This document shows, in pieces, positions 12,901 through 40,490 of a stretch of 40,553 bases of DNA. The stretch is from an uncultured Parvularculaceae bacterium (GTDB taxonomy: Bacteria > Pseudomonadota > Alphaproteobacteria > Caulobacterales > Parvularculaceae), in NCBI GenBank assembly GCA_938010655.1, contig CALLVA010000077.1, positions 1 to 40,553 of the forward strand, in the 5' to 3' direction. Positions within the stretch are counted from its first letter, which is position 1, and each line of letters opens with the position of its first letter. Made by a program: the position numbers and the translations under genes. Below the pieces are notes generated by a model that was not told the DNA's origin, made no database searches, and saw only the letters and a program-made list of their open reading frames with translations.

Positions 12901-15900
12901 AAGTGGTTTAACGGCTCTTCCGACAAACGTTACTTATATGGATGCAGATGGAACTCTTGTGCCCGCATTGGGTCTTGCTAACTTTGTCGGCAATACATCT
13001 GAAGTTGCTTTTCGCGAGTTGAATGTCGCCCCTATTGCTGACCTAAATGATGACACAACCACTGCGGCCCGCGACCATATTGTCACGGTGGAAACCAGTG
13101 CGGCAATCTCGGTCAATCCGATTGCAGCAAATGGCGGTGTTTTCGATACGGATAGTTCGTCCATTTCTCAACTCATTATTGAGATTGAAGAAGCTGGATT
13201 TGTGAATGCATCCGATGAGTATTTTGTGATTGGAGGCGAAGATATATCTCTTGATTCAGATTCCGTCACGGGGTCCGTTACGACAGATGTCGCGATTACG
13301 ATTAATGGCAATAATTATACCATTCGAACCACAAGAGTGAATAGTGCTGATCCTATCTCAGGGGGGCCAAGTGTTGTTATCAATATTCTGCAAACAACGG
13401 CTCAAGGCGACGGTCAAATTCCTCTGGCTGACATGAATGCTATTTTGCAAAGCCTAACCTATCGCAATGATGCAGGGCTAAATGCAACATCAGGAAATCG
13501 AGTTTACACGGTTCGCGCCATTGCGGATCAAGTTGCGCCTAGCACGAATAGTAACATAGCCACAGGCACAATTGCGGTCACGAATCCTGATCCTGTTATT
13601 GATTTGAACGATGATAACACAACAGCGAATTTGAATGTCGCAAATATCTTCACAGAAGGCGACGCGCCCCTCGCTATAGCGAATATGGGAGAAGTGCTTG
13701 ATGAAGAAAACGATATTATCGAATTAGAAATAGTTGTAGGCGGATTGGTCGACGGCAATGACGAAGTGATTACGCTGTCTGGAGAAGAATTTTCTTTAGG
13801 CACGGATAAAACCGTCACGATTACGAATCCGACTGGCGATAATGTCGAAATTGCTTATGTCAATGGCACATTCACGATCACTAATATCAGTTCTCCAGGG
13901 GAAGCAATTCCTGTCTCCTTATTGACCAATTTCCTACAAACCATGACCTACAATCATGAATCGGATGATCCGACAATTGGCAACCGGACATTGACCTTTA
14001 CAGCAGAGGACAAGGACGGGAACAGCACAAAGACTTCGGCTGTTGCGACAATTACCGTTCGCGAGGTGAACCAAGCGCCAGCGGGAGCCGACGCGACCAT
14101 AACAGCCACGGAAGATACGAATTATACATTCGCAGCGGCAGATTTTGGCTTTACTGACATAGATAATAACATGTTGGAAAGTATCACTATTCAACCTCTA
14201 ACGGGGAACGGTACATTATCCTTGAATGGAACAGAAGTGTTAGCTGCAACCACAATCGCCGTGGCGAATATTAGTAATCTTGTCTATGCACCAGATGAAA
14301 ATGATACAGGCGCGAACGCGGCAAGTTTCGATTTTGTTGTCACGGATAATGGGGGAACCGACAATAGTGGTCATGATACGGATCAATCAGCCAATAGAAT
14401 TACAATTAATATCAGTGCTGTTGATGATAATCCCGTCATTGATTTGAACGATAATAATACGACCGCAAATCTCGATTTTGCTTCAAGTTTCTCAGAAGGG
14501 GGCGGCGCTGTTGCGGTATCTGATAGTGATGCGGATATTTTTGATCCTGAAAATGATATTACTACGCTGACTATCATCATAGGCGGCGTGGAAGATGGTG
14601 CTTCTGAGGTAATTTCAATTGCGGGCCAAGCCTTCCCGGCCAATGCCGATGCAACGCTCAGCAATGTAACCGTGGGCAGTTCTTCTGTGAATATCGCTTA
14701 TATTGCTTCTACTGGACGTTTCACGATTACGAACACATTGGGGACGACAACCTCGATAGATCAAGCTGATCTTGATGTTCTGCTTCGCGGCATAACATAT
14801 GAAAACACATCACCAGACCTGACAGAAGGCAATCGGACACTCACTTTTTCTGCGACAGATACAGCTGGTTTGATGACCGTGACGAATGCGGTCGCAACGA
14901 TCTCCGTTGCTGCCGTGGATAATCCAATTGTCATTGTTGATCCAAATACGGGCCAACCGGCATCAAACTCTAATGATGTTGTTCCAGCACAAATGGGGAC
15001 AGATAATATCCTTCAGGGGGATTTGGACATATCTCCTTATTTCCAAGATTTAGATGATACATTGTCCTTTAGCGCTGCGAACTTGCCGGATGGTTTGACG
15101 ATTGACGCCGTGACCGGGGTTATCTCCGGCATGATATCGACTGATGCTTCTGTAGGCGGGGACGACCCGGCAGTGGCCCCTGGCATTTATACTGTTGTGG
15201 TAACGGCGGATGATGGTCATGGTGGTACTGCATCAACTAATATAACTTATACAATCTCAAACCCAACGCCAATTGCCTTAAATGATCCTTATACGACAAA
15301 CGAGGATACAGCATTCACAATTGATGTTTCTGGCGTTCTTGATAATGATACGGACCCTGATGGGGATACGCTCTTTGTTTCTGCCGTGGCGGGTTTGCCG
15401 TCCAATGTGGGAGAAGAGGTGACGGGCTCTAATGGCGGTGTCTTTACGATCAATCCTGATGGGTCGATTGCGTTTGATCCGGCTGGGGATTTTGAAAATC
15501 TTACAACGGGCCAGAGCGAAACCACCTCCCTTGAATATACCGTTTCCGATGGTCAGGGCGGAACTCAGGTTGCGATGGTCACTGTGACCGTCGATGGTGT
15601 TGATGATCCAGCATTTGTGACTGGGCCTCTGGGGACACAAACCGGGGTTGAAAATGGATCGATTGCACCGATTGACACTTCAACGATCTTTAACAATCCA
15701 AATGGTGAAACGCTCACCTATACAGTGGAGAACCTACCACCGGGATTGAATATTGATCCTTCAACCGGGATTATCTCAGGCACCATTACGCATACAGCGT
15801 CTCTTGGCGGGCCTTACAGCGTCACGGTTACTGCAACAACGCCAAGTGGCGAAACATCGTCTACAAACTTTGTGTATAATGTGAGCAACCCTGCGCCAGA

Positions 15901-18900
15901 GGCCAATGACGATAGAGTGACGACATTGCAGGACCAAAGCGTTATTTTAAATCCTTTGGTCAATGATAATGATCCTGATGGGGATGCCTTGATGGTTTCA
16001 GGCACAGGCGCGACCAGCAATGGGGGGACAGTGACAGTCCATCCAGATGGGACGCTAAGCTATACGCCTGCGACAGGATTTACTGGAACTGATATCTTTA
16101 CATATACAGTGGATGATGGCCAAGGCGGCACAGATATAGCGACGATTACCGTCACTGTAGGCACGCCGCCAGCGGACGCGCCAACGACTATTGGTGTCTC
16201 TGATCAGATGAATATTGATGGCGAGAATGTCAATTTTGATCCGACATCAAGCTTTAACGAGCCTAACGGTCAGGCGCTCACTTATGGCGCGATTGATTTA
16301 CCCCCGGGACTTTCTATGGACCCTGTGACCGGGTTGATCACGGGAACTATTGACCCAAGTGCCTCTCAGGCGGGGCCATACAATGTTACATTGACGGCAA
16401 CGGACCCTGATGGAAATACGATCAGTACCCAGTTTGTTTGGAATGTTAGAAACCCAGCGCCAGAAGCAGGGGACGATAATATCTACACGCCGGAAAACAC
16501 AGCGCATACACTAACCCCTCTTGGCAATGACGGGGATGTTGATGGCGATGCCTTGTCTATCCGTTCTATCGACACAGTTTCAGCCAATGGCGGAATGATC
16601 ACATTAAACCCAGATGGGTCTGTGACATATACACCGCCGGCTGGTTTTGTGGGGACTGACAGTTTTACTTATATTGTCAGTGATGAAAATGGCGCGACAG
16701 ATACGGCGACTGTAACTGTTGAAGTTGGACCAGCAATGCCGGCTGGTTATCCAGAAGTCACCTCAACACCGATGACCAATCAGACAGGGAATGATGGAGA
16801 AGGGATTTCGCCGCTTGATGTCACGGGGTCATTTATGGACCCGGATGGTGATCCGCTGATTTATGCAGCTTCAGGTCTGCCTGAAGGGTTGGAAATTAAT
16901 CCTAATACGGGGTTGATTTCTGGGACAATCGATCCTTCGGCGAGTCAGTCTGGTCCGTATACGGTTACAGTGACAGCGACAGACCCAGACGGCAATACAG
17001 CGACAACGCAGTTTGTCTACGCCGTGTCAAATCCTGCGCCAATGGCAGAAAATAACACCGCCGCAACGCTGCCGGGCGCACCGGTCGTGTTGAATGTTTT
17101 GAACAATGATACAGATATTGATGGAGACATGTTGACAGTGACGTCCGTCACGGCGCCGCAAAACGGCACTGTTGTGATTAATCCAGACGGGACATTAACC
17201 TATACACCAAATGCCGGATATGAAGGCATGGATCAGTTCACCTATACCATTCAGGATGGCCAAGGGGGGACGGATACTGCGACAGTCAATATTGAAGTTT
17301 CCGCAACGCCTTCTGCTTTTGGCGCAACTGGCAGTGTCGTCAATCAATCGGAAAATGATGGCGCGACAATTACGCCAATCAATCTATCCAATTTTGTGAC
17401 AGACCCCGAAGGCGGCACGTTGACTTTTGCCGTAACCAATCTGCCAACGGGATTGAATTTTGATCCTTTAACAGGCGTTATTTCCGGTACGATTGATCGT
17501 TCTGCATCGCGAGGGGGGCCGAATAATGATGGTATCTATCCTGTTGTCGCGACAATTACTGATCCGAGTGGAAATGAAACACCGATCACTTTCTTGTATA
17601 CGGTTACAAATACAATCCCGAATGCGATGGATGATGGCGTTATCAATGTGAATGAAGATACATCAACGCCTATAACAGTATTGGTCAATGATACTGACGC
17701 AGATGGTGATCCTATAATCGTAACCGAAATTAATGGGACGGCTATTGCGCCCGGCGGTGAACTGACTTTGCCAAGTGGCTCAGTTGTTCGCCTTACTGTT
17801 GGGGGGTCTATCACATATGAACCCGCCACAAACCTCACTGGGCCGGACAGCTTTACCTATACTATTGATGATGGGGAAGGCGGGACAGATACGGCGACGG
17901 TGAATTTGGCACTGGTCGGCGTGAATGATGGTCCGCAAACGGATATTGCTATTTCAAACCAGATGAATGTTGATGGAGATATTATTAGTTTAGATATTTC
18001 CGGGAATTTCTCTGATATAGATGATACAGATCTTTCCTATTCAGCCACTGATCTTCCGCCAGGTCTCTCGATTAACCCTGATGCAGGGATTATTTCCGGC
18101 ACATTGCCGGGAGATGCTAGTGTTGGTGGTCCGTATACAGTTATTATTACTGTAACGGATCCAGATGGCTTATCAGTTTCTGAGCCCTTTATTTGGGATG
18201 TTGATAATATCACCCCTGTCGTCGTGGCGCTGCAAGCGAACCAAACTAATAATGATGGGGAAAGTGTTGCAATCGATATAACGGGGGTCTTTAGCGAGCC
18301 AAGCCCTGATTCAGATATTTTAACTTATGCCGCTTCCGGGTTGCCGGAAGGATTGTCGATTGATCCGGCAACGGGGATTATCACGGGCACTATTGCTTCG
18401 GACGCATCTTTGCAGGAACCTTATACGGTCACTTTGACAGCTGATGATGGCCAAGGCGGTATTGCAACAGAGAGTTTCATCTGGAGTGTGAATAATACCA
18501 ATCCCGGTCTCCTCAGCCAGCTTGGCAACCAAGCTCATCAAGATGGGGAAACGATTAGTCCTGTAAATGTCTCAACATCTTTTGAAGATGTAGACGGTGA
18601 TCCACTCACCTTCACAGCGATGGGCTTACCGCCGGGGGTAAGTATTGATCCAAATACAGGAATCATCACAGGTACATTGCCAAAGGATGCGAGTCTTACA
18701 GGTCCGTATACGGTGTTAATTACTGCGACAGACCCGCAAGGCGATTTTATTGTTGATACATTTGTATGGGAAGTCAGTAATACGCCGCCAGAAGTTGTAA
18801 ATCCGCAAATCAATTTGACTTTGAATGATGGAGAAGTCTTCAGTCTAAATACGGCACCAAACTTTGATGATGGAGCGGATGATACAGATGTGATCACATA

Positions 18901-19975
18901 TACTGCAACCGGGTTGCCAGCGGGTCTTCGGATTGATCCGATGACGGGCGAGATACAAGGTACTATTGATAGCAGTGCATCGTTAAATGGACCGTTTACG
19001 GTTGAAGTCACGGCGACGGACGAGCAGGGGGATTCAACGAGCGATGTATTCGTCATCAATGTTGAAAATATCAATCCTGACGTTCCAACATTGCCGGAAG
19101 TGTCAGGAGAGGCAGCGCGCATTGGTGCGCCATTCTTCCTATCCGTTGCGACGACGGACCCGGATAATGATCAGCTCACCTATCGTGCTGAAGGCTTGCC
19201 GGATGGGCTAACGATTGATCCTGCCACAGGGGAAATCTCTGGAACACCCACAGGCCAAGATCAACAAGATGAGCCATATAATGTGACCATCACTGTTGAT
19301 GATGGCGAAGGCGGCGTGGTGAATTATCGCGTCGGGATTAGCGTTCTCCCTGATGATGCTTTGCCGATCATCCCATCTGGTGGAGAATTCCCATCTCTTG
19401 GCGATCTTTTTGAAAGGAAAGATACAGATGATGGGGGAGCTACTGATGGTTATTATCGAGAGAGCAATATTGGTCAGGATGATATCTTTGCCGCTCATCG
19501 GTCTACGGAATATGATATGCCGCGGCATGACTTTATAGGCGGTGTCTTGCGGTTCCAGGCACCGGGCTATCAAGGGGAGTTGGTCTTGGAAGGTGTTGCC
19601 ACCAATAAGGCTGTATATCTTGAATTATCCGAAACACTGAGCCAGCAAGATAATGTCACTGTTGTAAAATGGCATGTCGCTGCGCACCATCATGATGGAG
19701 AGGGATTGCCAAGTTGGATTGATCATGATGCAGCAACAGATGTCGTGGTTCTAAACCGCATCATCGGCACAGAGAGTTATGTCTTGCATATTCATGCGTT
19801 GACGACAGACAATCGTGTGATCTCTGGTGATTATGAAGTAAATCTGCGCACAGGCGATGTCAGTCTAGTGGGGCAGGCCACAACGAGAGTGGCTAGTTTT
19901 GCCGAGCAGCTAGAAATCCAACGACTTGCTGAACATGGGGAGGAAAGAGCTTTATTTGCAGCACTTGGCGAATAA
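3983..19975 (+). CDS. Giant (5330 aa) DUF4347 / cadherin-like / putative Ig (He_PIG) repeat surface protein, adhesin-like
   Basis: Single uninterrupted ORF. N-terminal LEQRILLDAAA motif (LEPR-XLL-like), DUF4347 (YKSVVFVDTAIDDYQTLIDGL...HVLSHGGVG...LLIYGCDVG...GADIAASTDDTGA...GGDWDLE), TSP3-type DxDxDGxxD repeats, cadherin-like NDxDxDGDxL/FTYxVxDGQGGTDTATVTV repeats and GLPxGLxIDPxTGxISGT He_PIG repeats. Confidence 0.9.
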   Translation: MIMPIFPKLNKSKLLNSTSVTHLQAPSQKKGLGLQALEQRILLDAAAFATGAEAVDVLTQQQAEAAANIVFETDHATSQEQDPLLTALRTISTQEDSKETLAFLSSAQVNPSRDPSGDQFTSLKVSDGSIGGMYIDPIRTFGFNSAIDIDNSPLITDGYNTEEGSVFMVDPPEPEFDLSGIGAQGEEYKSVVFVDTAIDDYQTLIDGLPLGIEIVLIDATQDGIEQMAEWFVVKSDYDAVHVLSHGGVGQVNLGTGQLTLASLTAEYADEMSIMQNALSADADLLIYGCDVGKNTSFVTALADATGADIAASTDDTGAIQYGGDWDLELKIGQVEAGIIVSVEAQSAFENILADTDGDGVDDLNDIDDDNDGILDINEQDVVAPTGVDAYFTGTVSLSVDGTYDTGNVTINRPVGATLLAAFVVSFDSPDNHSNSSPITVNNIPVPLPNVETSSLANGFINRNLWGDVTGELEAVLNALPTGDSTLTLSETSPTLASGSALVVVWDNPAVVDGYIALNFSSLRTSQGSNISIPIGAINTTDPNFSLTMGLGISHSASGPTEITTVNVNGGTVTTTAGGFDDGVRTVGRLITVGGEGDLIDSGAEIYDVSGFVSDGDTSIDITTSSSHAFDYLGLTWIVGTGIDPIVQSRDTDSDGIDDHLDLDSDNDGITDNIEAQTTANYIAPNIDDEATLIANAGLNSAYVATNGLAPVDTDNDGDDDYLDTDSDNEGDNDTTEAGLIGVTTGLSSETTDADGDGLFDIFDTQNGTLADDGVDPNESLAAGAAALPDSDNDANGALPFVADVDFRDANIAPSAMDDGDTTPIAITGNVPLNIDVLINDTDGDGDTLTITNIYDPVAPSTAISIATGEIVTLASGTQIEYLVTGELRVTTSPLAIGLESFIYEIYDGTESNQATVSLTRSQGSLFSVAPNATGTEDTPILIPVTIDPALISGGDLPNTVETAIGFHDASAGTTPTTFDIPANVTGITVTAIGGYDNGTANATQEEFISGVLNVDLVAGTYSGHDFVSYGYSQRTSDNFAFRDVALGDAASSGLVAGERAQGLNNFTVDVNNGVLSIVSTNTLLDQAYLVEFQTSDGSSMNLLQIFGEVQTPTELSSSFNVGTDASVAIINMQGGRDSSSTRDEDKAIGRIIVDYDTGLVSGTIFSQTGRGDNHNVAYAFEGYDLNSGLSIFDLASGATIVGDDNGSSLNLHELTITQVGDDLTITRASNTGSPFEILLSVETYERVDAGSAAFTLGSEAVSFTHIQNPNVVTTFDLPVAQGAETANITMAMSVAGSSTADNDNENTGTARIIVDFENGTTSGTFIGTRADSPDLLTWSNVPFGTRLFDHVDTISNHATIGGFTDEFAAVLSFDLVTNPDGSVILQGTAQVEPGAGTGSYANYAVVAQAVYSGRAPIEISGFVPGGTFNVGSLNAETGNWEVDAADLATLEFLPSEHFSGNTQALVFDYRGDAQSVNVDVSRVADAPTLVTTDFSGTENTTFAIHDAVIASLVDQDGSETLTVTLENISIGHTVSDGVNSFTAVSGNQNIDITTWDISALTYTPAADIYGEFTLDVRASTSDVDGFSSTADTAETLSRFTINVIQDTDSDGVADNVDIDDDNDGILDVEEGFASIESLGLSTTESTLSFIRSNANIVDPRAEFNDVLRIVDGNQSSASGLVFNGTLNPGEDTVFVLGLNVIEGDVVDTFELRASVRGLNDLDVRAFDLNIRDMAGSIVFSTSVPDTGPTGTAPATVTGFSLTEGFYTVEFIPQTHGASSSTVSRSELIAAEIAELSFVGVTNTGMQIAALHQDTDNDGIADHLDLDSDNDGITDNIEAQRTIGYIAPNADDIATYSENSGLNSAYVATNGLAPVNSDMDDTPDYLDTDSDNDGEFDIAEAGFEMADADGDGRVDIGDGPDMTPNTGDEQFSNIDVDGDGLADAFDTQGGTFADDGYNSNESLATGALAYPDKDNDAADDAPLTADVDFRDAVTTDQVPSLDLNVVETAPTPGQDGFAAFSFSAPTIVNDGQSEVADGIGNGETALYANVGFFNGQSVDLRATVIENNANTNPTFGLSGASDNANVNMDDASSGNSNISTVRWEIIESISGVPVAANFTLLITDLDNTATGNDEFEGERISISEGAIDGYVLEDVTDIVATLSNGVITFQPTDNDPGTAGQDPTNAVQLVFSATSSFEITYDRSGAANFSFDGNFTPIFNNAETVDTNVDFLSVFTENGGPVNIAAQNATVDDFTENDLTLLTITPGNIFDGTDERLIFNGDQNTSVILPLDGSNTDAQTLTIDSVEVSIQYTNGTIEISPIVGSTINQTILNTLLQTATYEHISENPTGGLNTDRSFTFQVTDVAGQLSNTAISVLTVLPLNDAPSPELVADPSGTVVIAGTGNPTAAITLDQAGFAATAELTGEMVRTAFSEGQTASDLGLISVADLLADFNIEDIEDSEFGIAIELADETQGRWQYLRTDLPTHEWTDFQLGDVNNTDVNPVPEGQVLLMDADAVFRFVADPTFTGETVIDFRVWDTSEGIASNPPSTFGSSVSNSSSFSSTVFSTMAASAGVDTDGDSILDVDDLDDDNDGILDSIESPAPNSVIQYDTVGWFYNDFPNISRTPVFDPSFIVSANPAFSGPGVIDTLTTSPSSSMRVDGATATSYSGARASEDYVQFEFTTGNLNPNTTVNNISIFIESAIGGDGTAALYFPYEFAIEISADANFSNAQTILTDAEAILQANRALIEYPTDEFALEDNTQYFIRAYIYNVASPSSAVIFDDFIVRFNENDAPLTRDTDGDGIADHLDLDSDNDGISDLEESGQNADIVDTNNDGIRDDMATPADQMLNDLNDDGISDAVAEGSQDQVIPRQTDSDGVADYRDLDSDADGIADAIEARLTTTGNVITTGGAAGDTDRDGVLDHFDTSSTFGGTFVAPIDTDSASSLNNNPDGIADYIDTDSDGDGILDSVESGLTALPTNVTYMDADGTLVPALGLANFVGNTSEVAFRELNVAPIADLNDDTTTAARDHIVTVETSAAISVNPIAANGGVFDTDSSSISQLIIEIEEAGFVNASDEYFVIGGEDISLDSDSVTGSVTTDVAITINGNNYTIRTTRVNSADPISGGPSVVINILQTTAQGDGQIPLADMNAILQSLTYRNDAGLNATSGNRVYTVRAIADQVAPSTNSNIATGTIAVTNPDPVIDLNDDNTTANLNVANIFTEGDAPLAIANMGEVLDEENDIIELEIVVGGLVDGNDEVITLSGEEFSLGTDKTVTITNPTGDNVEIAYVNGTFTITNISSPGEAIPVSLLTNFLQTMTYNHESDDPTIGNRTLTFTAEDKDGNSTKTSAVATITVREVNQAPAGADATITATEDTNYTFAAADFGFTDIDNNMLESITIQPLTGNGTLSLNGTEVLAATTIAVANISNLVYAPDENDTGANAASFDFVVTDNGGTDNSGHDTDQSANRITINISAVDDNPVIDLNDNNTTANLDFASSFSEGGGAVAVSDSDADIFDPENDITTLTIIIGGVEDGASEVISIAGQAFPANADATLSNVTVGSSSVNIAYIASTGRFTITNTLGTTTSIDQADLDVLLRGITYENTSPDLTEGNRTLTFSATDTAGLMTVTNAVATISVAAVDNPIVIVDPNTGQPASNSNDVVPAQMGTDNILQGDLDISPYFQDLDDTLSFSAANLPDGLTIDAVTGVISGMISTDASVGGDDPAVAPGIYTVVVTADDGHGGTASTNITYTISNPTPIALNDPYTTNEDTAFTIDVSGVLDNDTDPDGDTLFVSAVAGLPSNVGEEVTGSNGGVFTINPDGSIAFDPAGDFENLTTGQSETTSLEYTVSDGQGGTQVAMVTVTVDGVDDPAFVTGPLGTQTGVENGSIAPIDTSTIFNNPNGETLTYTVENLPPGLNIDPSTGIISGTITHTASLGGPYSVTVTATTPSGETSSTNFVYNVSNPAPEANDDRVTTLQDQSVILNPLVNDNDPDGDALMVSGTGATSNGGTVTVHPDGTLSYTPATGFTGTDIFTYTVDDGQGGTDIATITVTVGTPPADAPTTIGVSDQMNIDGENVNFDPTSSFNEPNGQALTYGAIDLPPGLSMDPVTGLITGTIDPSASQAGPYNVTLTATDPDGNTISTQFVWNVRNPAPEAGDDNIYTPENTAHTLTPLGNDGDVDGDALSIRSIDTVSANGGMITLNPDGSVTYTPPAGFVGTDSFTYIVSDENGATDTATVTVEVGPAMPAGYPEVTSTPMTNQTGNDGEGISPLDVTGSFMDPDGDPLIYAASGLPEGLEINPNTGLISGTIDPSASQSGPYTVTVTATDPDGNTATTQFVYAVSNPAPMAENNTAATLPGAPVVLNVLNNDTDIDGDMLTVTSVTAPQNGTVVINPDGTLTYTPNAGYEGMDQFTYTIQDGQGGTDTATVNIEVSATPSAFGATGSVVNQSENDGATITPINLSNFVTDPEGGTLTFAVTNLPTGLNFDPLTGVISGTIDRSASRGGPNNDGIYPVVATITDPSGNETPITFLYTVTNTIPNAMDDGVINVNEDTSTPITVLVNDTDADGDPIIVTEINGTAIAPGGELTLPSGSVVRLTVGGSITYEPATNLTGPDSFTYTIDDGEGGTDTATVNLALVGVNDGPQTDIAISNQMNVDGDIISLDISGNFSDIDDTDLSYSATDLPPGLSINPDAGIISGTLPGDASVGGPYTVIITVTDPDGLSVSEPFIWDVDNITPVVVALQANQTNNDGESVAIDITGVFSEPSPDSDILTYAASGLPEGLSIDPATGIITGTIASDASLQEPYTVTLTADDGQGGIATESFIWSVNNTNPGLLSQLGNQAHQDGETISPVNVSTSFEDVDGDPLTFTAMGLPPGVSIDPNTGIITGTLPKDASLTGPYTVLITATDPQGDFIVDTFVWEVSNTPPEVVNPQINLTLNDGEVFSLNTAPNFDDGADDTDVITYTATGLPAGLRIDPMTGEIQGTIDSSASLNGPFTVEVTATDEQGDSTSDVFVINVENINPDVPTLPEVSGEAARIGAPFFLSVATTDPDNDQLTYRAEGLPDGLTIDPATGEISGTPTGQDQQDEPYNVTITVDDGEGGVVNYRVGISVLPDDALPIIPSGGEFPSLGDLFERKDTDDGGATDGYYRESNIGQDDIFAAHRSTEYDMPRHDFIGGVLRFQAPGYQGELVLEGVATNKAVYLELSETLSQQDNVTVVKWHVAAHHHDGEGLPSWIDHDAATDVVVLNRIIGTESYVLHIHALTTDNRVISGDYEVNLRTGDVSLVGQATTRVASFAEQLEIQRLAEHGEERALFAALGE
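4547..5020 (+). other. DUF4347 domain of the giant protein with putative His245/Cys289 dyad
   Basis: YKSVVFVDTAIDDYQTLI ... VHVLSHGG (His codon 4715-4717) ... ADLLIYGCDVG (Cys codon 4847-4849) ... ADIAASTDDTGAIQYGGDWDLE. Confidence 0.75.
5042..6414 (+). repeat. Cassette module 1: TSP3 pair flanking a variable insert, ending in VDFRDA
   Basis: DTDGDGVDDLNDIDDDNDGILD + ~270-aa insert + DTDSDGIDDHLDLDSDNDGITDNIEAQ...GLNSAYVATNGLAPV...DADGDGLFDIFDTQNGTLADDG...ADVDFRDA. Confidence 0.8.
8798..9955 (+). repeat. Cassette module 2: TSP3 pair flanking a different insert, ending in VDFRDA
   Basis: DTDSDGVADNVDIDDDNDGILD + ~180-aa insert + DTDNDGIADHLDLDSDNDGITDNIEAQ...GLNSAYVATNGLAPV...DVDGDGLADAFDTQGGTFADDG...ADVDFRDA. 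Confidence 0.8.
11708..13023 (+). repeat. Cassette module 3: TSP3 pair flanking a third insert
   Basis: DTDGDSILDVDDLDDDNDGILD + ~200-aa insert + DTDGDGIADHLDLDSDNDGISDLEESGQ...DTDSDGDGILDSVESG...EVAFREL. Confidence 0.75.
13024..14935 (+). repeat. Three related cadherin-like modules beginning ADLNDDTTTA / IDLNDDNTTANL / IDLNDNNTTANL
   Basis: Shared ends such as LLTNFLQTMTYNHESDDPTIGNRTLTFTAEDKDG and DLDVLLRGITYENTSPDLTEGNRTLTFSATDTAG. Confidence 0.7.
15080..19290 (+). repeat. Ten He_PIG-type Ig modules; first five alternate with cadherin-like modules, last five in tandem
   Basis: Motif GLPxGLxIDPxTGxISGT starts near 15080, 15731, 16294, 16874, 17438, 18050, 18338, 18623, 18911 and 19193 (spacing ~560-650 bp, then 288/285/288/282 bp). 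Confidence 0.8.
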
Positions 19976-27124: not shown

Positions 27125-27628
27125 ATGTTACGCTCACTGCGTTTTATTCTAGGACGATATTTCGCCCTCGCTGTGGTGCTCGCCATTTTGTGGCTTTTGC
27201 TTTCAGGCTTTTTCGACAAAACTGTTTTGCTGGTCTTTGGGGCGCTGACCGTTCTTTTCTCGATCGCCTTGTCGCATCGTGCCGGCATGCTGGATAGTGA
27301 AGGCATTCCGACCAAAGTGTTTCCAGGTATTTTGGGATATATGGTATGGCTGACATTTGAGATTGGAAAAGCAAATTTAATTGTTGCGAAACAAGTTTTT
27401 TCGCCCAATCTCAGCCCCAAAATGATCCGCGTGAAAACAGATCAAAAAAGCGATATTGGCAAAGTCATCTTCGCGAATTCCGTAACGCTTACGCCGGGCA
27501 CGGTTTCGGTGGATTTGGCGGACGGGTCATTGTTAATCCATGCTCTAACGGAAGATTTGGCAGAAGAAGAGCCAATTTTGGCGATGGGCGAGCGCGTGTG
27601 TAAATTTGACCGGACAGGTGACGCATGA
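27125..27628 (+). CDS. mrpE: Na+/H+ antiporter subunit E (MnhE/MrpE); ORF track start 27014, likely real start 27125
   Basis: LAILWLLLSGFFDKTVLLVFGALTVLFSIALS...GYMVWLTFEIGKANLIVAKQVFSPNLSPKMIRVKTDQKSDIGKVIFANSVTLTPGTVSVDL. Confidence 0.88.
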   Translation: MLRSLRFILGRYFALAVVLAILWLLLSGFFDKTVLLVFGALTVLFSIALSHRAGMLDSEGIPTKVFPGILGYMVWLTFEIGKANLIVAKQVFSPNLSPKMIRVKTDQKSDIGKVIFANSVTLTPGTVSVDLADGSLLIHALTEDLAEEEPILAMGERVCKFDRTGDA

Positions 27629-27912
27629 TGTTTGTTGTCGCCTCAATCGCCGTCTTGGTTTCAATGGCGCTTGTTTTGGCCCGGGCAATCCTCGGCCCAA
27701 CGCTTTATGATCGTGTGCTGGCGGGCAATAGCTTTGGCACAAAGACTGTGTTGCTGCTGGGGTTGATGGGCTATGTCACAGGTCGCCCTGATTTTCTGGA
27801 TATTGCGCTTTTATATGCCTTGATCAATTTCACGGGCACGATTGCGATTCTGAAATTCTTCCGCTATCGGACGATGGCCGGCAGCATGGACGACATGCGA
27901 GGCCAGTCATGA
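27625..27912 (+). CDS. mrpF: Cation/H+ antiporter subunit F (MrpF)
   Basis: LVLARAILGPTLYDRVLAGNSFGTKTVLLLGLMGYVTGRPDFLDIALLYALINFTGTIAILKFF. Confidence 0.88.
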   Translation: MMFVVASIAVLVSMALVLARAILGPTLYDRVLAGNSFGTKTVLLLGLMGYVTGRPDFLDIALLYALINFTGTIAILKFFRYRTMAGSMDDMRGQS

Positions 27913-27925
27913 AGCGGGGTGTGGC

Positions 27926-28291
27926 ATGAGTTGGGACGTCATTTCAGATTATATTGCTTGGGGCTTTTTCATCATTGGCGCGCTGTTTGTGATTGTCGGC
28001 GCGCTTGGTATTTTGCGGTTCCCGGATTTTTACACGCGCATTCATGCGTCTGGGTTGACGGATACGCTGGGGGCAGAATTTATTTTAATCGGCATGGCGA
28101 TTCAGGCCCCATCATGGCTGATCGCCGCGAAAATCTTGATGATGATGATCTTCCTCTTATTGACCAGCCCCGTGGCGACCCATGCTGTGGCCCATGCGGC
28201 TTGGGTGGGAGGATTAAATCCGTTGACGGGCAAAGACCTCACTTATGATGAAGTGACCCCCACCGAAGAAGAACCGGAGGGCCGGGTCTAA
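27926..28291 (+). CDS. mrpG: Cation/H+ antiporter subunit G (MrpG)
   Basis: FFIIGALFVIVGALGILRFPDFYTRIHASGLTDTLGAEFILIGMAI. Confidence 0.88.
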   Translation: MSWDVISDYIAWGFFIIGALFVIVGALGILRFPDFYTRIHASGLTDTLGAEFILIGMAIQAPSWLIAAKILMMMIFLLLTSPVATHAVAHAAWVGGLNPLTGKDLTYDEVTPTEEEPEGRV

Positions 28292-28953
28292 TGGCTGATT
28301 ATCAAACGACGCTGTCGCCTATTCTGATTATTGATCTGACGCTGCTTGCCTTGCTGCTGGTGTGTGCTGTGGCGATGGTGCGGGTGCGCCGTCTGTTCGC
28401 TGTGGTGATGTTGTCTGGTATTTATTCGCTATTATCTGCTGCGTTTTTCGTTTCAATGGACGCGGTTGATGTGGCGTTTACAGAAGCGGCCGTTGGCGCT
28501 GGCATCTCCACTGTGTTGATGCTTTCCGGTATGTTGCTAACGGCCAAACGCGAAAAGCCGATTAAGACGGGCCGCGCACCTATTGCGATGTTTGTCTGTT
28601 TGATTGTGGGCGCAGCATTGGTCTATGCCTCAATTGATGCGCCAGCCTTTGGCGACCCGAACGCCCCGGCAAATGCTTATCTTGGCAAAATGTATGTCGA
28701 AAATAATTGGGCGGATACTCAAGTCCCCAACATTGTGACCTCTGTCCTCGCCAGCTATCGGGGCTTTGATACTTTGGGTGAAACTTATGTTGTTTTCACC
28801 GCAGCTTTGGCCGTGATGCTCCTCTTGGGGATCGCGACAGAGCGGGGCGGCAAGAAGAAGCTGGACGCCCGGGCGATGGAAGCGCAAGCGCGCCGGGAAT
28901 ATTTGGAAATGCAAGCTGAGAAAGAACGCGTTATATCAGGGGGCAATGACTAA
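28291..28953 (+). CDS. DUF4040 / MbhD-like subunit (equivalent to the MrpA C-terminal region) of the antiporter
   Basis: VRVRRLFAVVMLSGIYSLLSAAFFVSMDAVDVAFTEAAVGAGISTVLMLSGMLLT, plus a second membrane region NIVTSVLASYRGFDTLGETYVVFTAALAVMLLLG. Confidence 0.8.
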   Translation: MADYQTTLSPILIIDLTLLALLLVCAVAMVRVRRLFAVVMLSGIYSLLSAAFFVSMDAVDVAFTEAAVGAGISTVLMLSGMLLTAKREKPIKTGRAPIAMFVCLIVGAALVYASIDAPAFGDPNAPANAYLGKMYVENNWADTQVPNIVTSVLASYRGFDTLGETYVVFTAALAVMLLLGIATERGGKKKLDARAMEAQARREYLEMQAEKERVISGGND

Positions 28954-29393
28954 TGGGCCATCTGATTTTACGCGTGACGATTAAACTCCTCTTTGCGCCA
29001 ATTATTTTATTTGCGCTATATGTGCAGTTCCACGGGGATTATGGCCCGGGCGGTGGTTTTCAGGCCGGGGTTATTTTTGCTGTTGCATTTATTCTCCATG
29101 CGCTTGGGTTTGGCATTGATCAAACCAAGAAGGCTTTGCCGCCGGAGATTTTGCCTTGGATCATGGTGGTTGGCTTGATGCTTTATGTAGGCACAGGCTG
29201 GTTCACGATGATGATGGGCGAGAATTTTCTTTCTTATGATGTGATTGTGCCAGGCTCTCACCATCAAGCCGGGCAGCATGTCGGCATTATTCTTGTCGAG
29301 CTTGGGGTTGGGGTGGCTGTTGCCTCCAGCATGTTGATGATTTTCTTCCACTTTGCCAGCCGCGAGCCGGAAGTGGCGGATTCGGATTGGTAG
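28953..29393 (+). CDS. mrpB: Na+/H+ antiporter subunit B (MnhB-type)
   Basis: LFAPIILFALYVQFHGDYGPGGGFQAGVIFAVAFILHALGFG...GILVELGVGVAVASSML-type membrane protein. Confidence 0.87.
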   Translation: MGHLILRVTIKLLFAPIILFALYVQFHGDYGPGGGFQAGVIFAVAFILHALGFGIDQTKKALPPEILPWIMVVGLMLYVGTGWFTMMMGENFLSYDVIVPGSHHQAGQHVGIILVELGVGVAVASSMLMIFFHFASREPEVADSDW

Positions 29394-29401
29394 GATAGAC
29401 A

Positions 29402-30172
29402 ATGCTAGAATTTATCCTTGAGCGGTATAATTATTGGATCAGCATCTGCTTGATGTTGACCGGGCTCTATATCGTGATCAGTCGCGGCAATCTCGTGAAA
29501 ACTCTGATTGGCCTCAATCTGTTTCAAACCTCTGTGTTCATCTTCTATATTTCGATCGGCAAAATTGCCGGGGCGACGGCGCCGATCTTGCTCAAGCAGG
29601 ACCAAAAAGGCGGGCATCATGGCGATGGCCACGGCGGTGAACATGACGGCGACCACGGCGATGGCCATAGCGAAAAAGCGGCCCATGGGGACCATGCAGA
29701 CGCCGCTCACGCTAGCAAAGATTACCCAGCAGGCAGCAATGATTTAAACGCTGTTGCTGGCAGCGGTACCGATCATGAGAATGCTGATCACGATGCCCTG
29801 CACGGCGTGGCTGATCATGCTGGCGCGGGCAATAGTGTATTGGTGGAAACAAAATCTGCCAATGACGGCTATGGTGTTGAGACCCATACTGATCTTCATG
29901 CTGGCCCAGAAACTCATACTGAAGCAGCCGATGCGACAGTAGGGGTGGCGTCAAAAGCCTATGATTTGGCTGACGTTGTTTATACCAATCCTTTGCCCCA
30001 TGTCTTGATTCTCACAGCGATTGTGGTGGGCGTTGCGACAACGGCGGTGGGCTTGTCCCTCGCGGTTCGGATACGTGAAGCTTATGGCACAATTGAAGAA
30101 GATGAATTGGAAATGGCGGATCTGAAAGCAGAATTTGGCGATGATCTTGAAGCTGATGGAGTGATCGCCTGA
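29402..30172 (+). CDS. mrpC: Antiporter subunit C (MrpC/NuoK-like) with a long His/Asp-rich insertion
   Basis: NYWISICLMLTGLYIVISRGNLVKTLIGLNLFQTSVFIFYISIGKIAGATAPIL and YTNPLPHVLILTAIVVGVATTAVGLSLAVRIREAYGTIEEDEL, separated by ~120 residues GGHHGDGHGGEHDGDHGDGH.... Confidence 0.87.
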   Translation: MLEFILERYNYWISICLMLTGLYIVISRGNLVKTLIGLNLFQTSVFIFYISIGKIAGATAPILLKQDQKGGHHGDGHGGEHDGDHGDGHSEKAAHGDHADAAHASKDYPAGSNDLNAVAGSGTDHENADHDALHGVADHAGAGNSVLVETKSANDGYGVETHTDLHAGPETHTEAADATVGVASKAYDLADVVYTNPLPHVLILTAIVVGVATTAVGLSLAVRIREAYGTIEEDELEMADLKAEFGDDLEADGVIA

Positions 30173-31704
30173 TGGAGCATTTCTTCTCGCAATTGCCGGT
30201 GTTGCCGATTGTTACACCGATGATCCTTGCGCCTTTCGCATTGCTTATGCCAGCGGGTCGGACCCCATGGCTCTGGGCCACCCTTGTGAGCTGGGTGACA
30301 TTTTTCCTCTGCCTCTTATTGCTAGAACGCGTCTGGCTTGATGGGGTAATGGATTATAATATGGGTGACTGGAAAGTGCCCTTCGGGATCGCCTATCATA
30401 TTGATCTATCCAATGCGCTGGTGATGACTTTGGTCTCCGGCATGGCAGCTGTGGTTTTTCCATATTCGCTACGCAGCGTCGAATCTGAGATTGATATTCG
30501 TCAGACCCCGGCCTTTTATACAGCTTTGATGATCTGCATGACTGGCTTGCTTGGGGTGACGGCCACAGGCGACGCCTTCAATGTTTTCGTCTTCCTCGAA
30601 GTGTCTTCCCTCGCGACTTATGCGTTGGTGGCTATGGGCGCGCGCCATGATCGCCGGGCTTTAACAGCGGCATTTAACTATCTGGTGATGGGCACCCTCG
30701 GCGCGACCTTCTTCGTGATCGGCATTGGCCTGCTTTATCAAGCGACAGGCACGCTGAATATGCTGAATATGCATGATCGGTTGGTCGAACTTGAAAGCGG
30801 CAATCGTTCTGTGCAAGCAGGTTTTGCCTTTATCATTACAGGCATTGGCTTGAAATTGGCGATGGTGCCGGTTCATCTCTGGTTGCCGAATGCATACACA
30901 TTTGCGCCATCTGCGATTACAGCGTTCCTCGCGGCGTCTGCCACGAAAGTCGCCGTCTATGTGATGCTGCGCTTTATCTTCTCGGTCTTCGGAGTTCAAT
31001 TTGATTTCCTCAATGTCGCGCTAAACGGTTTCTTGCTGCTCGGTTTGGTGGGCATGGTCTATGCTTCTTTCGTTGCGGTCTTCCGGGATGATGTGAAGCA
31101 ATTGCTGGCTTATTCTTCGGTCGCACAGATCGGCTATATGCTGCTCGGAATTTCCATTGGCACTGTCGATGGTGTCAGTGCGTCGCTGGTGCATTTATTC
31201 AATCATGGCTTGATGAAAGCAGCATTGTTCATGTCTGTCGGCTGTGTGATGTTGCGGGTTGGCTCGCATCAATTGAAAGATTATTCAGGCCTCGCCCGGC
31301 AAATGCCATGGACCACATGGGCTTTCGTGATTTCCGGCTTGAGCCTTGTGGGCGTGCCCGGCACGGCAGGCTTTATTTCCAAGCTCATGTTGATGCGCGC
31401 GGCTCTTAATATTGAAACCAATATTCCTTTCGTATCCGGTGGTTTGGTCATCGCGATTATTCTGTTCAGCTCATTGCTCGCAGTGATCTATGTGGGCCGC
31501 ATTCTTTTCACGCTGATCCTTGGACCTGTCTCTGAATATGCGACCCATGTGAAAGAAGCGCCTGCATCCATGTTGGTCCCGATTTATATTATGGTGGCGG
31601 CGAATATCTGGTTTGGTTTGCAAAGTAGTGTCTTGGTCAATGTCGCGGTGAAAGCGGCACAAACCTTAGACCCCGGTGGCTTTGGTTTGGGGGGGGCATA
31701 TTAA
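30172..31704 (+). CDS. mrpD: Antiporter subunit D (NuoM/MrpD-like proton-conducting subunit), paralog 1
   Basis: FVFLEVSSLATYALVAMGARHDRRALTAAFNYLVMGTLGATFFVIGIGLLYQATGTLNM; KLAMVPVHLWLPNAYTFAPSAITAFLAASATKVAVYVMLR; DDVKQLLAYSSVAQIGYMLLGIS. Confidence 0.9.
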   Translation: MEHFFSQLPVLPIVTPMILAPFALLMPAGRTPWLWATLVSWVTFFLCLLLLERVWLDGVMDYNMGDWKVPFGIAYHIDLSNALVMTLVSGMAAVVFPYSLRSVESEIDIRQTPAFYTALMICMTGLLGVTATGDAFNVFVFLEVSSLATYALVAMGARHDRRALTAAFNYLVMGTLGATFFVIGIGLLYQATGTLNMLNMHDRLVELESGNRSVQAGFAFIITGIGLKLAMVPVHLWLPNAYTFAPSAITAFLAASATKVAVYVMLRFIFSVFGVQFDFLNVALNGFLLLGLVGMVYASFVAVFRDDVKQLLAYSSVAQIGYMLLGISIGTVDGVSASLVHLFNHGLMKAALFMSVGCVMLRVGSHQLKDYSGLARQMPWTTWAFVISGLSLVGVPGTAGFISKLMLMRAALNIETNIPFVSGGLVIAIILFSSLLAVIYVGRILFTLILGPVSEYATHVKEAPASMLVPIYIMVAANIWFGLQSSVLVNVAVKAAQTLDPGGFGLGGAY

Positions 31705-33203
31705 TGTTTGATGTTCTCAATCCCCAAACCGCAATGCTCATTGCGCTCTTGCTGCCTTTTGCGGGTCTGTTCGGTATTAAGTTTTTCGGCGAGCGTATGC
31801 CCAATGGGCGCGAAGCGACAACGCTAATCACAGGCCTTGTGGTTTTATATTGTGTGCTGACGGTTTTCACGGCGACAGCCAATGATGTGCCTATTCGCTT
31901 AGAGCTTCTTGAGATTATGCCGGGCATGGCGCTGGCGTTTGAAGTGGAGCGCCTCGGGGCGATGTTTGCCCTGATCGCCAGTGGTCTTTGGGTCGTTAAT
32001 TCGCTCTATTCCATTGGCTATATGCGCGGCACAACAGAAAAATGCCAGACGCGCTTTTATATGTGTTTCGCGGTGGCAATTTCTGCAGCCATTGGGGCAG
32101 CCTATGCCGCCAATTTGCTGACGCTCTTTTTGTTCTATGAAGTGCTGACGCTCTCGACCTTTCCTTTGGTCACACATAAAGGCGACGAGAATGCCCGTCG
32201 CGGCGGCACGGTCTATCTTGGAATTTTGCTCGGCACGTCCATCGGTCTTTTCTTACCTGCCGTCGTACTCACCTACGCGATCACTGGCGGCAATGGGGAT
32301 TTCGTCCTCGGGGGGATTTTGCAAGAGCATCGCGCTGCGACGGATCTTGTCATTGGCGTTCTCTTATTGCTCTTTGCCTATGGCATCGGCAAAGCGGCCT
32401 TGATGCCGATCCATCCTTGGCTGCCCAATGCGATGGTCGCCCCGACGCCTGTTTCTGCCTTCTTGCATGCGGTGGCTGTGGTGAAAGCGGGCGTGTTCGC
32501 CTTGTTGAAAGTCGCGGTTTATATTTTCGGGATTGATTATCTCAAAGAAATCCCGATGCATGAAGTCATTATGTGGCTCGCCGCAGGGTCGATCTTGCTG
32601 GCCTCTGCTATTGCCATGACCAAGGATAATCTGAAAGCGCGCCTCGCTTATTCCACCGTGTCCCAACTATCTTATGTGACCCTGGGCGCCATGATGGCGA
32701 CCTCTATGGGGGCGATGGGCGCAGGGCTTCAAATCGCGGCTCATGCTTTGGGCAAGATGACCTTGTTTATGTGCGCGGGCGCGATTTATGTGGCGCATCA
32801 TAAGGCGTTGATTTCGCAAATGCGTGGCCTTGGCCGCCAAATGCCATTTACGTTTATGGCGTTTTTGATTGGGGCTTGTTCGATCATCGGCTTGCCGCCG
32901 CTTGCTGGATCATGGCCGAAATTTTTCTTGCTCTGGGGCGCGGCAGATGCAGGCCAGCAAATTCTCTTTGCGGTGCTGATCGTCTCTTCCCTGATGAATA
33001 TCATCTATCTGCTCACACCGATTATTCGCGGGTTCATGGACCCACGTCCTGAAGATGTCGGCAAGGGTATTTCTGAAGCACCGCTCTTCTGCTTGGTCCC
33101 TGCATGGATCACGGCAACAGGCTGTCTCATTCTTTTCTTCAACACAGATGCACTGGTCACTTATTTGACGCCAGTCTTCGGCCAGATCAGCATAGGGGGC
33201 TAA
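31704..33203 (+). CDS. Antiporter D-type proton-conducting membrane subunit, paralog 2
   Basis: FLFYEVLTLSTFPLVTHKGDENARRGGTVYLGILLG; KAALMPIHPWLPNAMVAPTPVSAFLHAVAVVKAGVFALLK; DNLKARLAYSTVSQLSYVTLGAMM. Confidence 0.88.
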   Translation: MFDVLNPQTAMLIALLLPFAGLFGIKFFGERMPNGREATTLITGLVVLYCVLTVFTATANDVPIRLELLEIMPGMALAFEVERLGAMFALIASGLWVVNSLYSIGYMRGTTEKCQTRFYMCFAVAISAAIGAAYAANLLTLFLFYEVLTLSTFPLVTHKGDENARRGGTVYLGILLGTSIGLFLPAVVLTYAITGGNGDFVLGGILQEHRAATDLVIGVLLLLFAYGIGKAALMPIHPWLPNAMVAPTPVSAFLHAVAVVKAGVFALLKVAVYIFGIDYLKEIPMHEVIMWLAAGSILLASAIAMTKDNLKARLAYSTVSQLSYVTLGAMMATSMGAMGAGLQIAAHALGKMTLFMCAGAIYVAHHKALISQMRGLGRQMPFTFMAFLIGACSIIGLPPLAGSWPKFFLLWGAADAGQQILFAVLIVSSLMNIIYLLTPIIRGFMDPRPEDVGKGISEAPLFCLVPAWITATGCLILFFNTDALVTYLTPVFGQISIGG

Positions 33204-33207
33204 CGCG

Positions 33208-33546
33208 ATGGATCATCACGATATTAAGCCGGAAGAAATGAGCTGGTTTGAAAAGCCCGGCTCTATCAAATTAATGTGGATCATCTTGATCGGACTTTGC
33301 GTGCTGAGCGCCGTTGCGGGCGTTGTCGCCAGCTTCATGCATTTGATGCACCCTTATACAATCGCCGATAAATTCCCTGTCTTTTATGGTGTCTATGGCT
33401 TTGCCGCTTTCATGTTCATCGTGCTAGCGGGTCAGCATTTGCGCAAAATTCTGATGCGCGACGAAGATTATTATGACACGGCGCAAGAGCGCATGACCCG
33501 CGAAGAAATTGAAGATGCGGCAACGCAAGAGGAGGGCAATCAATGA
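33208..33546 (+). CDS. Small two-TM membrane protein embedded in the antiporter cluster, unknown function
   Basis: MDHHDIKPEEMSWFEKPGSIKLMWIILIGLCVLSAVAGVVASFMHLMHPYTIADKFPVFYGVYGFAAFMFIVLAGQHLRKIL; 4-bp ATGA overlap with the next gene. Confidence 0.75.
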   Translation: MDHHDIKPEEMSWFEKPGSIKLMWIILIGLCVLSAVAGVVASFMHLMHPYTIADKFPVFYGVYGFAAFMFIVLAGQHLRKILMRDEDYYDTAQERMTREEIEDAATQEEGNQ

Positions 33547-35315
33547 GTGTTGATCCGTTCTTGCCTTCAAACCTTTCGCCGGGCGTCATCCTTATTCTTG
33601 TTGGTTTATTTGTCGGCTTTTTGCCGGGCAAATCCGTTAGAGGTCTTGTCTCGCTTGGGGCTGTGGCCGTGGCGATCTTGCACCTCTTATCATATGGCTC
33701 TGCCCCCATGGGCGCCCCTGTCCTGCATGGGGTTGGCGAAATATTCGGCCTTGAGACGATTAGTGTCAGGATTGACAAATTAGGCATTATCTTTGCCCTG
33801 ATCTTCTTAATCGCTGCGGGGATCAATGCGATTTATGGCTGGCTCCACGCGACCCGTGTCGAGGTGTCCACTGGCTTGGTCTATGCGGGCGCTGCCGTTG
33901 CCGGGGCTTTAGCGGGGGATTTCCTCACGCTCTTTATCTATTGGGAACTCGCCGCGCTTTCTTCTGTCTTCATCGTTTGGGCAGGCGGCTCTCATGCTTC
34001 CTTCAAAGCGGGCATTCGCTATCTCGTCGTTCAAGTCCTGTCTGGTCTCTTGCTGCTTTGTGGCATTGTGATGCGCATTTCAGATGGGCAGGGGATCTAT
34101 TTTGGGGATCTGAGCTTATTTGACCAAGAAGGGCAGATGATCCTTTCATCGCTCCTGATCTTGATTGCCTTTGGCATTAAAGCAGCCTTCCCGTTCTTGC
34201 ATAATTGGCTGCAAGATTCTTATCCAAAAGCCACAGCCGTTGGCGCGGTGATGCTCTCCGCTTTCACCACCAAATTGGCGGTTTATACATTGGCGCGGTC
34301 TTTCGCAGGCACAGAAGTGTTGATTTATATCGGCGCGACCATGACGATCTTCCCGGTCTTCTTTGCGCTGATTGAAAATGATTTACGTAAAGTGCTGGCC
34401 TATTCCCTCAATAACCAAGTGGGTTTCATGGTCTGCGCAGTGGGCATCGGCACGGAACTCGCGATTAATGGCGCAGCCGCCCATGCTTTTGTGCACATTA
34501 TTTATAAAGCGCTGCTCTTCATGAGTATGGGGGCCGTGTTGGTCCGCACGGGCACGGCCAAGGCAACTGAGCTTGGGGGCTTACATAAATCCATGCCCTG
34601 GACGACGATTTTTTGTATCATTGGCGCGATGTCGATTTCCGCCTTCCCGCTCTTTTCGGGGTTTGTTGCAAAATCTTTGATCGTTTCTGCCGCGGCAAAA
34701 GAACATATTTTTCTCATCTGGGGCGTGTTGATTTTCGCCTCCGCGGGTGTGCTGGAACATTCAGGAATCAAAATTCCGTATTTCGCTTTCTTCGCCCATG
34801 ATCAATTCGCGCCGTCCAAAACCGGCAAGCCGCGGCCAAAAGAAGCGCCGATGCCAATGTTGATTGCGATGGGGATCGCGGCTTTCTTATGTATTGCTGT
34901 GGGGGTCTTCCCCGGGGCGCTCTATTCTTTGCTGCCATATGATGTGAAATATCAGCCTTATACAGTGGATCATGTGGTCACGCAGATGCAGCTCTTATTA
35001 TTTGCGATTCTGGCCTTTGGTTTGTTGATCCGCTTCAAGCTTTATCCGGCTGAAATTCGATCGCAAAACCTTGATACCGATTGGCTATATCGTGTGCCCG
35101 GCAAGGGCATGCTGATGGGGCTTGTAGGCGGGATTGCCTTACTTTGGCAAAATATTTGGACAACGCTGCAACGCTTCTTCGCGTGGTGGGTCCGAAGATT
35201 ATATGCGACCCATGGTCCAGAAGGGGCGTTGGCGCGCTCTTTCCCGATTGGGTTCATGGCTTTAATGACAGCTGTGCTTCTGGCGATTGCGCTGGTCATG
35301 ACGCTCATCGTCTAA
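33543..35315 (+). CDS. Antiporter D-type proton-conducting membrane subunit, paralog 3 (590 aa)
   Basis: FLTLFIYWELAALSSVFIVWAGGSHASFKAGIRYLVVQVLSG; IKAAFPFLHNWLQDSYPKATAVGAVMLSAFTTKLAVYTLAR; ENDLRKVLAYSLNNQVGFMVCAVGIG. Confidence 0.88.
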   Translation: MSVDPFLPSNLSPGVILILVGLFVGFLPGKSVRGLVSLGAVAVAILHLLSYGSAPMGAPVLHGVGEIFGLETISVRIDKLGIIFALIFLIAAGINAIYGWLHATRVEVSTGLVYAGAAVAGALAGDFLTLFIYWELAALSSVFIVWAGGSHASFKAGIRYLVVQVLSGLLLLCGIVMRISDGQGIYFGDLSLFDQEGQMILSSLLILIAFGIKAAFPFLHNWLQDSYPKATAVGAVMLSAFTTKLAVYTLARSFAGTEVLIYIGATMTIFPVFFALIENDLRKVLAYSLNNQVGFMVCAVGIGTELAINGAAAHAFVHIIYKALLFMSMGAVLVRTGTAKATELGGLHKSMPWTTIFCIIGAMSISAFPLFSGFVAKSLIVSAAAKEHIFLIWGVLIFASAGVLEHSGIKIPYFAFFAHDQFAPSKTGKPRPKEAPMPMLIAMGIAAFLCIAVGVFPGALYSLLPYDVKYQPYTVDHVVTQMQLLLFAILAFGLLIRFKLYPAEIRSQNLDTDWLYRVPGKGMLMGLVGGIALLWQNIWTTLQRFFAWWVRRLYATHGPEGALARSFPIGFMALMTAVLLAIALVMTLIV

Positions 35316-35532: not shown

Positions 35533-35997
35533 ATGGAGATGTCTACTAACTTGCGCCAGGGTCATGCCTGGCAGGAGGCTTGTGTGCATGCCACACAGGA
35601 AATTGTTGCGGAGGCTTTTGAAGTATCAACGAGGAGTTTAACAGCTGCGGGTCGTTCAAGAGCGAATATTTCAATGGCGCGGCAGACGGCGATGTATCTA
35701 AAACATATTGTCTGTTGCCTGCCATTGGCCACTATTGCGCGGATCTATAAGCGGGACCGCACAACAGTTGGATATGCCATAAGGAAAATCGAAGATATGC
35801 GAGATGAAGCTGCCTTTGATACTTTAGTGCATAAAATTGAACAAAAGTTGCAGCGCCGTTTGGAAGCCTTGGAATTTCAAATGTTGCTGGATCAAAAATC
35901 GACTTATGTCGTGCCGGAAACGAAGATGTTGCCGGTGGAAGAGATAGCTGCTTATGAGGACAGTAATGTCACTTTTGTGCAGTTCGGGGGCCGCTAA
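35533..35997 (+). CDS. Stand-alone DnaA domain IV-like (DnaA C-terminal) DNA-binding protein
   Basis: RSRANISMARQTAMYLKHIVCCLPLATIARIYKRDRTTVGYAIRKIEDMRDEAAFD matches the DnaA domain IV pattern (ARQxAMYL...L..IG..F..RDHTTV..A..KIE); no AAA+ domain. Confidence 0.82.
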   Translation: MEMSTNLRQGHAWQEACVHATQEIVAEAFEVSTRSLTAAGRSRANISMARQTAMYLKHIVCCLPLATIARIYKRDRTTVGYAIRKIEDMRDEAAFDTLVHKIEQKLQRRLEALEFQMLLDQKSTYVVPETKMLPVEEIAAYEDSNVTFVQFGGR

Positions 35998-39921: not shown

Positions 39922-40003
39922 GTAGGGCGGGTGCCAACCCGCCATTTGGATTCTTAATACGAAACTATGCTGGTGGGTTGCGCTACGCTTCACCCACCCT
40001 ACG
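39922..40003. repeat. REP/BIME-type repeat, copy 2 (82 bp)
   Basis: GTAGGGCGGGTGCCAACCCGCCATTTGGATTCTTAATACGAAACTATGCTGGTGGGTTGCGCTACGCTTCACCCACCCTACG. Confidence 0.85.
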
Positions 40004-40490
40004 TGTTGGTTTTTGTGTTTGTGTTGGCGGCTTTCCATTTTCGATATGTGGAATGAGGCCACTCTTCGGGGTTTTTAACGAGTCCATGCTTCACCGGATT
40101 AAAATGGACGTAATTTATTTGGGCATCAAAATCTTCTTCATCGCGGATTAAATGTTCCCAAAATCGTTTCTGCCAAATGGCCCGTTCGCCTCTGGCATTG
40201 GCCGGGGGCAACTCAATTTTGTGTTTAATTGCTTTAGTGAACCCGGTCTTTATCTTTTTCCACCGCGTTGAAAAATCATCTTCCCCTTCTGGCAACCGCC
40301 AGACCGTATGCAGATGATCTGGCATGATGGTAATAGCGAGTGTTTCAAACGGCAGTTCTTTTTGGATAAGGGAATAACTTTGCCAAAAATCATCAATGAA
40401 CCGTACAAGATAATCTTGTCGCCGATCCTGCAAAGTGACGACAAAAGCGTAAGTCCCACCGGGAACATAAAGGCGTCTATAGTTTGGCAT
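39999..40490 (-). mobile_element. REP-associated tyrosine transposase (RAYT; Y1_Tnp/IS200-like)
   Basis: MPNYRRLYVPGGTYAFVVTLQDRRQ; HUH motif IMPDHLHTVWRLPEGEDDFSTRWKKIK; FWEHLIRDEEDFDAQINYVHFNPVKHGLV with putative catalytic Tyr. Confidence 0.9.

Follow-up and report, generated by a model that had tools for sequence, protein, structure and literature searches.

A clade-restricted, selected acidic and histidine-spaced insert in MrpC of a Parvularculaceae Mrp-type antiporter operon

The MrpC protein of an uncultured Parvularculaceae bacterium carries, between helices TM2 and TM3, an insert of 130 amino acids that is confined to one order-level clade and is kept by purifying selection. The gene lies in a window of 40,553 nucleotides (contig CALLVA010000077.1), to which all coordinates refer unless another source is named. 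Our preferred reading, held tentatively and at somewhat less than even confidence, is that the insert is a selected, probably flexible, acidic periplasmic loop that acts locally at the proposed Na+ exit, carries docking motifs in the window's family, and does not serve mainly to buffer metals. MrpC is a known subunit that appears here in a new variant, and the functions discussed below are proposals. A search of the open-access literature turned up no account of a His-rich insert in MrpC.

The mrpC ORF (29402-30172, + strand) codes for 256 amino acids and matches profiles for the NuoK-like subunit of multisubunit cation/proton antiporters. It scores 72.9 bits against Pfam Oxidored_q2 (PF00420), above the curated cut-off of 26.1, and 120.3 bits against NCBIfam NF005624, above the cut-off of 95. 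Residues 1-63 (29402-29590) make up the TM1-TM2 half, in which HMMER alignment to solved MrpC chains predicts a cytosolic loop at about residues 28-34 by homology (PMC9568556). Two histidines of A. flavithermus MrpC, H37 and H40, have been described as conserved in Mrp (PMC7419157), and the alignment to 6z16_C places T43 and F46 of the window MrpC at these positions. Within this segment (residues 42-46, 29525-29539), the pair Gln42-Thr43 shows no variation among 13 close relatives, both insert-bearing and insert-less. The only plasmid matches to the window MrpC come from haloarchaeal plasmids (H1-H12) and reach no further than residue 63, with identities of 40-53%.

The insert is held in a ten-gene operon (27125-35315, +) whose profile matches give the order MrpE-F-G-(MbhD/E-like)-B-C-D1-D2-S-D3, and this order is nearly the same at 15 comparison loci. 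The mrpC gene sits between those for MrpB and MrpD, and the B-C-D1 arrangement is found at 14 of the 15 loci. Gene set and order are essentially identical in insert-bearing and insert-less genomes, with no insert-correlated gene gain seen in the operon across the 15 loci, and therefore MrpC is the only component that is visibly changed. The operon departs from the canonical seven-subunit (group I) Mrp type, which has a fused MrpA together with MrpB-G. No fused MrpA is present; the operon instead codes for three MrpD-like subunits and a small unannotated protein, and its MbhD/E-like subunit is a separate one. A profile search of the neighboring ORFs found no hydrogenase or sulfur-reductase catalytic subunit beside the operon.

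The small protein (33208-33546, +) has 112 amino acids, lies between two MrpD-like genes, and has no Pfam or NCBIfam match. It occupies the same operon place at 13 of the 15 comparison loci, including loci from a different class, and probably represents a subunit of this kind of antiporter that has escaped annotation. Immediately after the operon is a gene (35533-35997, +) whose 154-amino acid product contains a DnaA C-terminal helix-turn-helix domain. Other features of the window include a single ORF of 5330 codons (3983-19975, +), with DUF4347 and bacterial Ig/cadherin-like domains in its first 3006 residues, and an adjoining outer membrane efflux protein gene (2281-3900). Near the contig end, positions 39999-40490 (- strand) weakly match an IS200-like Y1 transposase.

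The insert comprises residues 64-193 (29591-29980), from the TM2 end at TAPIL to the TM3 start at YTNPLPHVLILTAI. Relatives outside the order have 6-7 residues at this place, or 15 in a single case, and the insert therefore adds about 124 amino acids. The initial annotation had described a His/Asp-rich insertion of about 120 residues in a NuoK-like loop, with 16 His at 29606-29968, between flanks that are normally close together in MrpC. The short loops of the relatives bear out the last point, and the insertion is indeed a real TM2-TM3 insert restricted to one lineage. The His count is exactly 16, all within that interval, and the extent needs a slight correction to 130 residues. The insert also has 17 Asp, 25 Asp or Glu in total, and six Lys or Arg, for a net charge of -19. 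Nucleotide shuffling predicts 3.7 +/- 1.9 His with a maximum of 13 (n=5000). Among 217 ORFs sampled from the same genome, a draft that is 78.5% complete, His makes up 1.8% of residues, and the insert is level with a ZIP zinc transporter as the most His-rich 60-residue stretch. The ZIP protein, encoded at L192 5558-6115 (-) of this genome, has a classical dense His loop, HHHGVDDDHDHHH.

Four elements can be recognized along the insert. Proximal to TM2 is a His-Gly-Asp tract (29609-29716, +), GGHHGDGHGGEHDGDHGDGHSEKAAHGDHADAAHAS, in which successive His spacings are 1, 4, 4, 4, 4, 6, 3, and 5. An Asn-Asp-Leu motif follows (29738-29746, +), which is a case of a family-specific N-x-L motif supported by motif statistics and retention. 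Motif statistics also define a first Leu-His motif (29798-29842, +), LHGVADHAGAGNSVL, and the enrichment of LH..P marks a second, the Leu-His-x-x-Pro sequence LHAGP (29894-29908, +).

Aligning MrpC homologs, a check suggested in the initial annotation, established that the insert is clade-restricted, near-universal in the window's family, and shorter in two sister families. The window MrpC query was matched in 60 of 62 genomes of its family, where the insert spans 88-233 amino acids (median 136) at the 57 loci measured. In the two sister families of the same order, the TM2-TM3 loop has 33-136 amino acids (median 53 among 30 sampled), and two further families of the order gave weak matches to the query or none. 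Elsewhere in the class and phylum, 6-7 residues separate the same flanks, apart from one family with a loop of 15 residues that is not rich in His, and MrpC proteins at a greater distance have loops of 5-12 residues. In a tree of the core (108 columns), whose root is unresolved and whose outgroup branches are very long, the insert labels cluster strongly, with 4 changes compared to 57 when shuffled. This clustering agrees with a single origin in the order, short of proof.

The sequence of the insert evolves quickly but under constraint. In the 34 close pairs for which a value could be computed (with insert identities from about 0.55 upward), dN/dS of the insert is 0.09-0.32, where the pairs have members in common and thus are not independent, and insert dN is several times core dN. 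Residue retention was measured in 11 disjoint close pairs, with an overall value of 0.74 for aligned insert residues. His (0.90), Leu (0.88), and Tyr (0.91) are well retained, and Asp (0.75), Glu (0.67), and Gly (0.70) less so. Context also counts, as His in LH is retained at 0.96 and other His at 0.84, and Asn in N-x-L is retained at 0.95 versus 0.62 for other Asn. Since His has only two codons, without selection it would be expected to be retained no better than Gly or Ala, which are four-fold degenerate. Neutral drift of the loop among close relatives, which the initial annotation had named among the grounds for giving up its proposal, is therefore rejected, given the low dN/dS and the preferential retention of His and other residues.

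Loop statistics were compiled for 87 loops with 9578 residues, and because these sequences are related, the ratios of observed to expected counts given here overstate significance. In the window's family, HG occurs 201 times versus 79 expected from composition, and H-x3-H 76 times versus 39. Conversely, HxH is strongly depleted (3 versus 39 expected in the family, 1 versus 23 in the sister families), as is HxxH (5 versus 40 and 4 versus 23, respectively). The sister families agree with the window's family in this pattern. The window's loop itself has no HxH and one HxxH. Tyr obeys the same rule, such that [HY]-x3-[HY] is found 101 times versus 51 expected, and a Tyr separated by one residue from a His or Tyr twice versus 13 expected. 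The loop spaces His (or Tyr) by 4-5 residues, with Gly after. Net charge is negative in each of the 87 loops, and loop length correlates more closely with net negative charge (r = 0.84) than with His count (r = 0.61). Four of the 87 have fewer than three His, some of them 1-2, yet are acidic. By charge-hydropathy, the window's loop and 65 of the 87 fall on the disordered side.

The Leu- and Asn-containing motifs are specific to the window's family. There, LH occurs 126 times versus 38 expected, LH..P 61 times versus 2.0, and N[DEASQP]L 81 times versus 9.7, whereas no LH..P and no N[DEASQP]L are present in the sister families sampled. Leu-His-x-x-Pro and Asn-x-Leu recur within single proteins and are the best-conserved sites of the insert. 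In genus g6 they make up a recognizable module of 65 residues, which is found with significant E-values once per genome in 28 of 28 genomes and in MrpC only; no paralogous copies were detected elsewhere in the genomes at significant E-values. Matches in genus g2 are weak (E 0.02-0.4). That motifs recur in individual proteins and that retention depends on the residue holds despite the kinship of the sequences.

Homology provides a prediction for the location of the insert in the complex. The region after it, TM3 and the C-terminal tail (29981-30172, +), contains a segment, residues 196-212, that HMMER aligns with residues 66-82 of B. pseudofirmus MrpC (7qru_C). In that complex, a cavity opens to the cytosol near MrpC Arg27, and residues 66-82 surround a proposed periplasmic sodium exit tunnel (PMC9568556). 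Since the segment directly after the insert aligns with the exit-tunnel segment, the TM2-TM3 loop is expected to be periplasmic. We infer that the insert probably lies in the periplasm and would run straight into the part of TM3 lining the proposed Na+ exit. The near-absence of Arg from the 87 loops (59 among 9578 residues, along with 2 Cys) agrees with this placement. A low-confidence AlphaFold prediction from the single sequence (mean pLDDT 51), taken as weak support, shows helices on the flanks and residues 70-174 without structure.

The high His content had led to the suggestion that the loop resembles the metal-buffering loops of zinc and nickel proteins and might couple antiport to metal or pH sensing. 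In the metal version, the His/Asp cluster would bind Zn, Ni, Co, or Cu and gate antiport. The 16 His and 17 Asp of the window's loop and the preferential retention of His are in keeping with this idea, and disordered His-rich transporter loops are able to bind zinc (IRT1, PMC12203963; ZIP4, PMC7949119). However, HxH and HxxH are avoided in the 87 relatives, opposite to the H162/H164/H166/H168 series of IRT1 (PMC12203963), and Tyr is subject to the same spacing grammar as His. Furthermore, species with 1-2 His still keep the loop, Cys is almost absent, no metal genes were recognized among the window's annotated ORFs near the operon, and the ZIP protein of the same genome has a dense His pattern instead. 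The spacing statistics and the contrast with this ZIP protein weaken a metal-buffer reading drawn from composition alone. Metal sensing by the 16-His loop of the window is possible, but we consider metal buffering or sensing distinctly unlikely as the explanation for the loop. We give even less credence to a tolerated low-complexity expansion, whose composition would be maintained solely by mutation bias and the general rule against Arg and Lys in periplasmic loops. Lengths of 33-233 amino acids among relatives, repeat-like tracts such as AAHGAADAAHG, and an insert dN far above that of the core are what such an expansion would produce. This scenario is difficult to reconcile with the dN/dS values, with retention that is specific to residues and motifs, and with the presence of the insert in essentially the whole family.

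Another explanation assigns the function to the motifs: LH..P and N-x-L would attach to the cell wall or to a distinct partner in the periplasm, with the His/Gly/Asp tract serving just as a flexible spacer. Motif counts far above composition expectation, repetition within single proteins at the best-conserved insert sites, and the module of genus g6 all speak for docking. Nevertheless, we regard this explanation as unlikely, as the sister families keep an insert without the motifs, the binding partner is only hypothetical, and retention also favors the His tract (0.84 for His outside LH versus 0.74 overall). The reading we prefer, a selected acidic loop acting at the proposed Na+ exit, would make the insert a mobile, negatively charged surface at the periplasmic exit mouth, with titratable spaced rings. 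Such a surface might tune cation release and proton supply at the mouth, and the Leu-His and Asn-x-Leu motifs found in the window's family may dock the loop on the complex to which it belongs, at the periplasmic face. For the small Mrp subunits, the periplasmic side has been mapped as positive, which is said to favor cation release (PMC7419157), and an acidic loop there might hinder this step instead of helping it. Likewise, the several-fold variation in length and the sister families without Leu-His motifs leave a single function for all loops unproven.

The insert could be a selected, disordered periplasmic regulatory domain, in which a spaced His/Tyr-acid tract and a repeated LH..P/N-x-L docking motif control ion exit or tether the complex. 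We consider this proposal less likely than not. If true, the domain would be a regulatory module not described for CPA3 antiporters. It is still debated how Mrp complexes couple cation release to proton uptake, a question that extends to complex I. A clade-restricted insert beside the proposed Na+ exit offers a natural comparison with relatives that have 6-7 residues at this site in the same operon, and this comparison bears on whether control over antiport resides in the periplasmic exit mouth. The MrpC loop also serves as a reminder that a high His count alone does not equate to metal binding.

Among solved chains, the top match of the window MrpC is 6u8y_G (7.4e-18), subunit C of a related complex that we take to be the Pyrococcus MBS complex, and this chain is without the insert. 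The solved CPA3 Mrp chains of MrpC/MnhC (6z16_C and 7qru_C) share with the window protein a three-helix NuoK-like fold by sequence, the same flanking motifs, and an Mrp-type operon. The window MrpC differs in adding the acidic, His-spaced TM2-TM3 insert of about 124 residues. The His-rich loops of ZIP4 and IRT1 are similar in being disordered, His/Asp-rich, and located between TM helices of a cation transporter (PMC7949119, PMC12203963). Like them, the MrpC insert places many His between TM helices, but it has neither their dense HxH/HxxH pattern nor, among the window's annotated ORFs, a genomic link to metal homeostasis. Whereas IRT1 carries consecutive HxH (PMC12203963), the MrpC loop avoids both HxH and HxxH.
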